A stretch of DNA of 64,000 nucleotides from Ptiloglossa arizonensis (Eukaryota; Arthropoda; Insecta; Hymenoptera; Colletidae). Below, one piece after another: positions 7,801 through 9,301 of this stretch. A program made the position numbers and the translations under genes. The notes beneath the pieces were generated by a model. That model was not told where the DNA came from, ran no database searches, and was given only the letters and a program-made list of their open reading frames with translations. The first letter of the stretch is position 1, and each line of letters begins with the position of its first letter. The stretch lies in contig NW_027478886.1 in assembly GCF_051014685.1 (NCBI RefSeq), positions 310,001 through 374,000 on the forward strand, in the 5' to 3' direction.

Positions 7801-8197
7801 CGTTATACGTTATACGTTATACGTTATACGTTATTCGTTATACGTTATACGTTATACGTTATACGTTATACGGAATACGTTATACGTTATACGTTATACG
7901 TCATACGTTATACGTTATACGTTACACGTTATACGTTATATGTTATACGTTATACGTTATACGTTATACGTTATACGTTAAACGTTATACGTTATACGTT
8001 ATAAGTTATACGTTACACGTTATACGTTACATGTTATTCGTTACACGTTATACGTTACACGTTATACGTTATATGTTATACGTTATACGTAATATGTAAT
8101 ACGTTATACCATTTACGTTATTCGTTATACGTTCTTCGTTATGCGTTGTACGTTATACGTTGTGCGTTATACGTTATACGTTACACGTTATACGTTA

Positions 8198-8203
8198 CAC
8201 GTT
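8198..8203. other. Target-site duplication, left copy
   Basis: CACGTT directly left of the element, repeated at 9217-9222. Removing the element and one copy restores the heptad register and gives exactly the sequence found after the A box in uninterrupted copies such as the one starting at 2759. Two of the six bases are shared with the LTR margin, so 4 or 5 bp are also possible. Confidence 0.85.
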
Positions 8204-8264
8204 TGGCGGCGCTAAATTAAAGTATGTGAGGAAGGAGCGAACGGAAATATAAGGAAGTGGGGAT

Positions 8265-8335
8265 AAGCGTTTCATCCCGGGCCTGCTAGTGGACTCGTCA
8301 GTAAGGCATCCTAGCAGGCCCTGCCTTATACGCCG
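8265..8335 (-). ncRNA. Hammerhead ribozyme, type III, in 3' LTR
   Basis: Read on the minus strand. Stem III is GGCGU (8334-8330) with ACGCU (8270-8266), the last pair being G-U. The cleavage triplet is GUA, cutting after A8329. Stem I is UAAGGC (8328-8323) with GCCUUA (8307-8302), six perfect pairs and a 15-nt loop. Core strand one is CUGACGA (8301-8295). Stem II is GUCC (8294-8291) with GGAU (8277-8274), with a G-U closing pair and a 13-nt loop. Core strand two is GAAA (8273-8270). All invariant core bases of the hammerhead family are present. The open helix is stem III, the topology of plant retrozymes and viroid-like RNAs. The G-U at the core end of stem II is less usual and might slow cleavage. 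Confidence 0.86.
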
Positions 8336-8362
8336 GGACATTGGGAGATCGGTAAGAGGTCG

Positions 8363-8370
8363 TATATATA
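8363..8370 (-). promoter_or_regulatory. TATA-like motif in 3' LTR
   Basis: TATATATA, read CTATATATACG on the minus strand, lies about 28-35 bases upstream of the 5' edge of the hammerhead. That is the usual distance from a polymerase II TATA box to its start site, so transcription would begin at or just before the ribozyme. The spacing is seen; promoter function is inferred. Confidence 0.5.
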
Positions 8371-8457
8371 GCGATCGGAGCAGGTACGGGAACTTGCGGG
8401 AAACGGTTGATGGTGAGTTTCCCTCTGGTGGCAAGCGTGGGTAGTGCCGCCACATAA

Positions 8458-8467
8458 CCCCCTTGCC
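8458..8467 (-). other. Polypurine tract
   Basis: Minus-strand GGCAAGGGGG stands at the 3' end of the interior, three bases (TTA) before the 3' LTR. Its position and G-rich composition fit the plus-strand primer of LTR elements. One C interrupts the purines, so the effective tract may be AAGGGGG only. Confidence 0.65.
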
Positions 8468-8929
8468 AGTGGTAAACGATACTTTGAAGTTCCGTCCTGA
8501 TGTCCCAGTGGCGTAGGTATTTGTTCCGTAGTTCGGTTTGGCACAACAGGCACAGGAGGAGGTTGTCCAGAGCGGTGGAAGAGGAGAATGCTTCTTTTTC
8601 GTAGTAAGGCCCAGCTGCTGTCGATTGCGGAATACACGTGGCGAGCATCGTTTGCTCAAGCCGCGTTTTCGCTTGTTGTCCGACGTTGATGCGTGCGCGT
8701 ACCAGTATTTATGAAACGCATCGGTGTGGTCGGTGAATAATGTCGACAAGCTGCCTGCTGTCCTCCTGGGGTTGATCCTGATGGTTAGCCGGGAGTATAG
8801 CGTTCGTGTCGTCGCTGGCAGGTCGAGGAGTCAACCCTCGGAGAGGGGGATTTACGAAAAATCGGCCTTTACGTTGCGCGTTCCTTCCATCGTCTTGTGC
8901 TGCACCTCTACTGCTGCTGTGCTGTTGTC

Positions 8930-8945
8930 CAGAAGGTTGCGTGTT
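8930..8945 (-). other. Second tRNA-Trp complementary segment (extended PBS)
   Basis: The + strand CAGAAGGTTGCGTGTT equals the 3' anticodon stem, variable loop and 5' T-arm of eukaryotic tRNA-Trp, 16 of 16 bases. The minus-strand RNA would therefore pair with the primer tRNA a second time, six bases after the 11-base PBS. The intervening T-loop and 3' T-stem part of the tRNA (about 10 bases) is not matched. Ty1 and Ty3 have comparable extra contacts with tRNA-iMet; whether this one works that way is inference. Confidence 0.75.
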
Positions 8946-8951
8946 GCTAGA

Positions 8952-8962
8952 CGGGGTCACCA
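8952..8962 (-). other. Primer-binding site for tRNA-Trp
   Basis: Minus-strand TGGTGACCCCG begins three bases (AAG) after the 5' LTR. It is complementary to the 3' end CGGGGTCA plus CCA of animal tRNA-Trp, the primer used by avian retroviruses (PBS TGGTGACCCCGACGTG). The match is 11 contiguous bases, then breaks. Plant tRNA-Trp as I recall it ends CGGGTTCA and would give one mismatch. tRNA identity is from memory of the family. Confidence 0.8.
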
Positions 8963-9026
8963 CTTTGGCGGCGCTAAATTAAAGTATGTGAGGAAGGAGC
9001 GAACGGAAATATAAGGAAGTGGGGAT

Positions 9027-9097
9027 AAGCGTTTCATCCCGGGCCTGCTAGTGGACTCGTCAGTAAGGCATCCTAGCAGGCCCTGCCTTATACGCCG
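9027..9097 (-). ncRNA. Hammerhead ribozyme, type III, in 5' LTR
   Basis: Exact copy of the motif at 8265-8335, shifted by 762 bp. The predicted cut is between A9091 and U9090. In a transcript starting at the nearby TATA-like motif, this ribozyme would trim the 5' end a few bases after the start and leave the 5'-hydroxyl needed for circularisation with the cut end made in the 3' LTR. Confidence 0.85.
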
Positions 9098-9124
9098 GGA
9101 CATTGGGAGATCGGTAAGAGGTCG

Positions 9125-9132
9125 TATATATA
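9125..9132 (-). promoter_or_regulatory. TATA-like motif in 5' LTR
   Basis: The 5' LTR counterpart of the motif at 8363-8370 (762 bp away). This is the copy that would drive the full-length element transcript toward lower coordinates. Confidence 0.5.
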
Positions 9133-9216
9133 GCGATCGGAGCAGGTACGGGAACTTGCGGGAAACGGTTGATGGTGAGTTTCCCTCTGGTGGCAAGCGT
9201 GGGTAGTGCCGCCACA

Positions 9217-9222
9217 CACGTT
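9217..9222. other. Target-site duplication, right copy
   Basis: CACGTT directly right of the element, matching 8198-8203. The satellite then continues ACACGTTATACG as in the empty sites. Confidence 0.85.
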
Positions 9223-9301
9223 ACACGTTATACGTCACACGTTATACGTTATACGTTAGACGTTATACGTTATACGTTATACGTTATACGTTATACGTTA
9301 T

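Follow-up and report, generated by a model that had tools for sequence, protein, structure and literature searches.

Results

A short LTR element interrupts a heptamer satellite

The window, by which we mean the whole analysed stretch of 64 kb from the bee Ptiloglossa arizonensis, is an ACGTTAT heptamer satellite throughout, as the preliminary description had it, and the only interruption found is a small LTR element of the retrozyme type (Table 1). The longest exact direct repeat of the element region measured 253 bp (8202-8454 and 8964-9216), in agreement with the two identical LTRs proposed earlier. Read in sense orientation, the 5' LTR is followed by a G and then by the primer binding site (PBS) TGGTGACCCCG, and the expected polypurine tract (PPT) was present as AAGGGGG ahead of the 3' LTR.

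Table 1 Features of the element and of its insertion site in the window.
Feature	Position	Strand	Basis or remark
LTR retrozyme, 1015 bp	8202..9216	minus (sense)	repeat, empty sites, 40-copy comparison
5' LTR, 253 bp, TGTGGCGG...GCCGCCAAA	8964..9216	minus	exact repeat; ends set by 40 copies
3' LTR, identical to 5' LTR	8202..8454	minus	exact repeat
Target site duplication CACG, 5' side of sense strand	9217..9220		copies and empty sites
Target site duplication CACG, 3' side of sense strand	8198..8201		copies and empty sites
Primer binding site TGGTGACCCCG	8952..8962	minus	pairs with host tRNA-Trp over 11 nt; match of 18 nt in older copies
Polypurine tract AAGGGGG, then TTA, then 3' LTR	8458..8464	minus	sequence and copies
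Type III hammerhead, 5' LTR; predicted cleavage 9091/9090	9026..9098	minus	Rfam (below threshold) and descriptor
Type III hammerhead, 3' LTR; predicted cleavage 8329/8328	8264..8336	minus	Rfam (below threshold) and descriptor
Loop I stretch GGGCCTGCTAG, perfect complement of loop II stretch	9073..9083 (3' LTR copy 8311-8321)	minus	descriptor, loop comparison
Loop II stretch CTAGCAGGCCC	9041..9051 (3' LTR copy 8279-8289)	minus	descriptor, loop comparison
Candidate TATA box TATATATA	9125..9132 (3' LTR copy 8363-8370)	minus	ends 34 nt before predicted cleavage site
Predicted self-cleaved, circularised RNA, 762 nt	8329..9090	minus	predicted cleavage sites
Internal region, 509 bp, no recognised protein in frames tested	8455..8963	minus	Pfam search

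The ends of the element were set by comparison of 40 copies, taken from 36 stretches fetched from the host genome plus the window and representing 36 distinct flank pairs; one copy (L255.0), whose near flanks recur in two others, is a probable duplicate. In all 40 copies, that of the window included, the sequence ...GCCGCCA was trailed by AA. With the LTR taken as TG...AA and 253 bp, an exact 4-bp duplication flanked 37 of the 40 copies; two more (L260 and L274) can be fitted with a duplication of 5 bp or with an LTR extended by one base, and the duplication of the last (L253), which sits in satellite, is ambiguous. The duplication of the window copy is therefore CACG. The LTR element and the presence of a target duplication thus stood as first described, and the start at 8204 with a CA end was corrected to 8202 and TG...AA; the 6-bp duplication that the 8204 start implied was replaced by one of 4 bp.

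The earlier view that the element lacks coding capacity agreed with a Pfam search, in which none of the four largest minus-strand frames of the element matched a family. A 211-aa stop-to-stop frame (window 8195-8830, minus strand) had been considered as a possible protein-coding internal region and was set aside, being one of the frames with no Pfam family; it runs through the internal region and the 3' LTR and is probably due to chance. The candidate TATA box TATATATA was invariant across 81 LTRs; a promoter role is inferred for it, which would put the start of the transcript close to the ribozyme.

With 8202-9216 taken out, the window displayed degenerate higher-order repeats, in which a marker spacing of 476 was seen four times. 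Queries for the empty site were made by joining the flanks after removal of the element and one duplication. A 300-nt joined flank matched 300/300 at two sites in the same window, and a 120-nt joined flank reached at least 118/120 at 15 other places in the window, seven of them exact (a 16th match being the joined site itself). We read these matches as paralogous empty sites within the higher-order repeats of the satellite. The heptamer satellite hosts 14 of the 36 distinct flank pairs of the young copies examined, which may reflect a target preference or simply a large satellite.

Each LTR carries an unusual type III hammerhead motif

A hammerhead in each LTR had been proposed by eye. A strict type III descriptor (CTGANGA, GAAA, UH and three stems) matched both LTRs and no further place on the two strands of the window, and it matched none of 4000 dinucleotide shuffles of the 760-nt unit, both strands being searched. 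At the gathering score, the Rfam search of the window gave no hammerhead, no tRNA and no other family; below that score, Hammerhead_3 was the top match, at full length in both LTRs, scoring 22.8 bits where the cut-off is 48.5 (with laxer filters, E 0.041 across 4227 families). The covariance check thus did give a hammerhead match, one below the gathering score. A search of the host genome with RF00008 returned no match, its controls being equally silent.

In both LTRs the motif has a stem I of 7 bp, a stem II of 4 bp and a stem III of 4 bp plus an A-U closing pair. Loops I and II have 13 nt each and hold GGGCCTGCTAG and CTAGCAGGCCC, respectively, which form a perfect 11-nt complement. The comparators were 85 hits of the type III descriptor in viral and prokaryotic loci (L001-L240), as listed from two stem II-pattern scans; their longest contiguous Watson-Crick run between terminal loops was 3, a measure that is blind to contacts with internal loops or tails. 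Loop-loop pseudoknots occur in hammerheads of all three types, with examples of 4 to 6 bp in the parts of the sources cited here (PMC3088659, PMC7936874). The bee motif is, to judge from its loops, an unusual hammerhead and distinct from those of plant retrozymes.

The lowest-energy fold of the 73-nt stretch (-30.3 kcal/mol) exhibited stem III and the 11-bp helix, with stems I and II absent; the three hammerhead stems alone gave -12.2 kcal/mol and the loop-loop duplex -22.3 kcal/mol. This predicted fold and the proposed active fold share stem III and the 11-bp helix. We had at one stage taken the 11-bp hairpin for a competitor of the ribozyme, a view that was softened, the helix nested with stem III being the loop-loop pairing itself.

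Among LTRs read with no filter on the core, the hammerhead was identical in 76 of 82 and its catalytic core unchanged in all 82. Variable columns numbered 2 of 71 in the hammerhead against 39 of 62 in the 3' part of the LTR (p 7e-15); against the 5' part (11 of 118) the difference was not significant (p 0.14). An overall conservation of the hammerhead (p 1.5e-6) was accordingly cut down once the LTR had been split into these parts. The family is too uniform for covariation to be counted.

The element belongs to a young family in the bee genome

The host assembly comprises 998,670,959 bases in 2016 contigs. At least 42 near-full-length matches of 96-100% were found in it, 40 of 898 candidates having been scored, and the 40 copies read have the same LTR-PBS-PPT layout, so that the further copies anticipated by the preliminary description do exist. 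The two LTRs differed at no position in 14 of the 40 copies. A hammerhead pattern in which both loops and most of the stems were left free had 700 genomic matches, compared to 3 for the reversed control; the first 100 matches listed, one of them evidently due to chance, comprised 29 pairs spaced 759-773 nt and 42 single motifs. In the same way, LTR-PBS junctions numbered 274 in the genome and none in the control. The exact LTR-end/PBS pattern had no match in viral contigs.

Multimers were also present. Two copies (L253 and L279) have the order LTR-internal-LTR-internal-LTR with a period of about 760 nt, and among 100 LTR-PBS junctions listed we found six tandem arrays with a spacing of 758-768 nt, one of them with three junctions. 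Unequal crossing-over could also produce such multimers.

The identity of the host was examined with its mitochondrial genes. On contig C969, COX1 forms a 514-aa frame that is open when TGA is read as Trp, and its top-ranked relatives (best 120 of 7998 scored) were Colletes gigas (83%), Andrena (81%) and Hylaeus (79-80%). The best solved structures for COX1 are, as we take the entry codes to indicate, mammalian ahead of yeast, and the best structure match of ND2, 8b9z, is presumably that of Drosophila. The COX1 of the host is thus that of a bee, one perhaps close to Colletidae, and the statement made earlier on condition of an animal host, namely that a plant-like LTR retrozyme would then exist in a metazoan, applies. 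The host taxonomy likewise did not lead to a known plant retrozyme family, the host being no plant. The PBS had been offered as a sign of an animal host; a PBS alone cannot separate an animal from other eukaryotes, which the mitochondrial protein does.

The same contig contains five COX1 copies 22-27 kb apart, possibly a mitochondrial concatemer of varying length. Other contigs contain at least 83 more COX1 matches of nearly full length (88 of 631 candidates scored), every one interrupted by one or two TAA stops, and we read these scattered matches as an exceptional load of nuclear mitochondrial copies.

As regards the primer, a pattern search of the host genome found one tRNA-Trp(CCA) gene, which predicts the PBS TGGTGACCCCGACGTGATT. 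The match to it extends over 18 nt in an older retrozyme (L295) and in a copy of the partner family described below (L291), and over 11 contiguous nt in the window copy, in keeping with the tRNA-Trp primer site originally proposed.

A Ty3/gypsy family shares the tRNA-Trp primer site

The 18-nt PBS with its AA lead had 46 matches in the genome and none in the control. Among other sequences, the search yielded diverged retrozymes (L292, L295 and L296) and a coding family (L291, L293, L297, L298 and L303), whose gag is a DUF7041 match in L291. The LTR stretches of this coding family contained no CTGANGA core with a following GAAA (for L297 the stretch is just the 38 nt before the PBS), and among the stretches read there was no autonomous gypsy element with hammerhead LTRs at both ends. 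Much of the output of this search belongs to a second tRNA-Trp-primed LTR family (L300, L301, L305-L318 and L320; LTR end ...ACCCACAT, PBS AATTGGTGACCCCGACGTGA), and L302/L304 and L299 point to more families.

Across the box that spans the PPT and the LTR start, partner and retrozyme agreed at 23 of 26 positions, a comparison that covered this one gypsy family. At the LTR-end/PBS box, the partner and the older retrozyme L295 agreed at 22 of 23 positions, mostly those of the 18-nt tRNA complement, which is to be expected in any element primed by tRNA-Trp and is also present in the second family; the LTR ends as such are different.

A retrozyme-gypsy chimera

A retrozyme-type LTR joined to a gypsy internal region was found at two places in the genome (C86 and C7), of which one, C86, was followed to its far end. 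The C86 element (L319 and the adjoining L321) consists of retrozyme LTR, internal region (97%) and LTR, then PBS-gag-pro-pol-PPT and a gypsy 3' LTR of 560 bp that contains no CTGANGA core. Over 1506 nt, its gag stretch has 99.8% identity with L298 and L303. Its frames gave DUF7041, a Ty3 capsid match under the cut-off, RVT_1, RNase H, an integrase zinc finger and an integrase core that matched weakly and was split between two pieces; this domain order is that of Ty3/gypsy. These polymerase domains were read in the chimera alone, the stand-alone partner copies being covered to 1.5 kb past the PBS.

The tetranucleotide CTTC stands at both ends of the chimera, in register with the surrounding tandem repeat, and the joined flanks, with the left one shortened by 3 nt, matched neighbouring repeat units at 89-90% in the alignments shown. 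Its two retrozyme LTRs differ at 6 of 272 aligned columns (PBS included), all within the last 45, the first 227 nt, hammerhead included, being identical. Differences confined to the neighbourhood of the PBS are as a template switch would leave them, and the chimera looks like a product of co-packaging and template switching.

At the second place (L294, region of C7:3248716; L294:1268-2793) a retrozyme-type LTR, its hammerhead damaged by an inserted base beside GAAA, stands ahead of a gag fragment, and an inverted retrozyme LTR follows about 1 kb into the gag region. This is possibly an aberrant cDNA or a product of self-integration.

Discussion

Proposed life cycle

The assembled sequences themselves attest to target-duplicating insertion, to the copy number, to a PPT/LTR-start box common to retrozyme and partner, and to the chimera of the two. 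On this basis we propose that transcription starts from an LTR promoter and reads the window's minus strand, and that the type III hammerheads of both LTRs would cut the transcript to an RNA of 762 nt, which a host ligase would close to a circle. The circle predicted in the preliminary description (9090 down to 8329) follows from the predicted cleavage site, and the 762-nt unit has a compact predicted fold (z -3.46, 20 shuffles). The Ty3/gypsy family would then package the RNA, prime with tRNA-Trp at the PBS and copy it, at times for more than one round, and the gypsy integrase would insert the cDNA with a 4-bp target duplication. Self-cleavage, circularisation and the use of the circle as template of reverse transcription are those steps that we infer.

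For the chimera, minus-strand synthesis on gypsy RNA may have reached the PBS and switched to retrozyme RNA in the LTR end/PBS; the reverse transcriptase would then have run round at least one whole retrozyme unit, and the gypsy integrase would have inserted the product. A full 5' LTR needs U3, which a linear RNA starting inside the LTR would lack and a circle would supply. Because this one insertion looks like a product of co-packaging and template switching, the identified Ty3/gypsy family is the probable mobiliser of the retrozyme.

Taken jointly, the reading that the window element belongs to a young LTR retrozyme family with many copies in the bee, cut by its hammerheads, mobilised by the gypsy family and inserted with 4-bp target duplications, has in our estimate a probability of about 0.82; the value takes account of the polymerase domains, which were found only in the chimera, and by the LTR-end/PBS box, which is mostly tRNA complement. 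A further-reaching version, to which we give slightly less than an even chance, holds that the RNA circle is the template of the identified gypsy reverse transcriptase and that the hammerhead is a new variant, locked by a one-turn loop-loop helix of 11 bp that would arise jointly with stem III and so serve as a co-transcriptional switch.

Alternative explanations

The sequence could also be an ordinary TRIM that moves on the gypsy partner, with an LTR hairpin serving dimerisation, packaging or RNA stability and a hammerhead that is inactive or fortuitous. The dominance of the 11-bp helix in the predicted fold, the conservation of the 5' part of the LTR, about like that of the hammerhead, and the Rfam score below threshold are all compatible with this, and in the sections of the source cited here tRNA-Trp is the primer of some Helenus TRIMs in Hymenoptera, and Helenus elements of animals have 4-bp duplications and a tRNA-like LTR with no ribozyme (PMC10886601). 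However, each LTR has all three stems along with the core nucleotides and the cleavage triplet, a combination that occurred in none of the 4000 shuffles, the core is unchanged in the 82 LTRs read with no core filter, and the 11-nt complements lie exactly in loops I and II, the site of hammerhead tertiary contact; an ordinary TRIM is thus improbable. It is less far-fetched, if still unlikely, that the identity as a retrozyme is right and that multimers and chimera arose by genomic recombination, the usual template being a linear RNA: unequal crossing-over between LTRs yields LTR-internal-LTR-internal-LTR arrays, the circle is predicted from sequence and, of the two chimeric places, C86 is the one read through to its other end. 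The chimera has a single matching 4-bp duplication, with one and the same tandem repeat in register on either side, an outcome hardly to be looked for from recombination between two separate loci; the identity of its retrozyme LTRs over 227 nt also speaks against such an origin.

Two other explanations have almost no probability left. Known animal retrozymes are of the non-LTR kind (PMC7229834, PMC7761336, as far as the text available of each goes), which would suggest a non-LTR retrozyme or a Penelope-like element; this is refuted by the anatomy, that is by LTRs, PBS, PPT and 4-bp duplications together with a hammerhead of type III, not type I. Contamination of the assembly by plant DNA might be suspected, LTR retrozymes having been described from plants, but the copies are spread across many contigs, up to 36 Mb long, which refutes it; moreover, the PBS matches the assembly's own tRNA-Trp and the COX1 is a bee's.

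Relation to known retrozymes, hammerheads and TRIMs

The comparisons that follow hold for those portions of the cited papers that were at hand. LTR retrozymes have been described from plants, and animal retrozymes as LTR-free with type I hammerheads (PMC4918200, PMC7229834, PMC7761336, PMC11722881); the preliminary description had drawn the same line. An animal LTR retrozyme was not found in the open-licence literature of PubMed Central, as far as its texts were accessible, preprints being outside this scope.

The bee element resembles plant LTR retrozymes in being non-coding, with a type III hammerhead per LTR, a PBS, a PPT and 4-bp duplications, and also in its unit between cleavage sites (about 700 nt in plants), its solo LTRs, its tandem copies and its Ty3/gypsy end boxes (PMC4918200); plant retrozymes have end boxes in common with Ty3/gypsy elements (Cervera, Urbina and de la Pena 2016, PMC4918200). 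It differs in its bee host, in the use of tRNA-Trp instead of tRNA-Met and in an LTR of 253 bp compared to about 350 bp, and a retrozyme-gypsy chimera was found for the bee family, unlike for those of plants (PMC4918200). The hammerhead loops of plant retrozymes are short (PMC7936874), whereas those of the bee element have 13 nt and include a perfect complement of 11 nt. RNA circles have been observed for plant retrozymes (PMC4918200), whereas that of the bee is predicted from sequence.

With the metazoan non-LTR retrozymes (Cervera and de la Pena 2020, PMC7229834) the element shares an animal host and a small ribozyme-delimited RNA that is expected to be circular; those elements, in contrast, have type I hammerheads, units of 170-400 nt and neither LTR, PBS nor PPT (PMC7229834). 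For Diptera and termites, pseudoknotted hammerheads of type III have been reported, the fly study being announced as in preparation (PMC7936874). The bee motif resembles the type III hammerheads of flies, termites and HDV-like RNAs in its Watson-Crick contacts between loops 1 and 2 and, like the fly and termite ones, in being from an insect; their contacts are of about 4 bp with longer helices, against 11 nt in the bee (PMC7936874). The termite genomic hammerheads are isolated motifs, and the portions available describe no surrounding retroelement for the insect cases (PMC7936874).

The Helenus TRIMs of Hymenoptera (Kojima 2024, PMC10886601) are likewise miniature LTR elements, some with a tRNA-Trp PBS, with 4-bp duplications and presumably moved by Gypsy elements, but their LTRs carry a tRNA-like sequence instead of a ribozyme (PMC10886601). 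No tRNA appeared in the E<=10 Rfam list for 8180-9240, Rfam being the one means by which a tRNA-like sequence, degenerate promoters included, was sought.

Significance

As far as its sequence can tell, this is a real LTR retrozyme family in an animal, in agreement with plant LTR retrozymes in every structural feature tested. If this holds, the 11-nt loop-loop complement is a new test object for the tertiary structure of hammerheads, and the type III hammerheads of insects would gain a biological context; because the Rfam type III model scores the bee motif below its cut-off, more such hammerheads may hide in insect genomes. Through the gypsy partner and the chimera, one can test by which enzyme retrozymes are moved and whether reverse transcription uses the RNA circle as its template. 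LTR retrozymes would extend from plants to animals, and the divide between LTR retrozymes in plants and non-LTR retrozymes in animals would not be strict.
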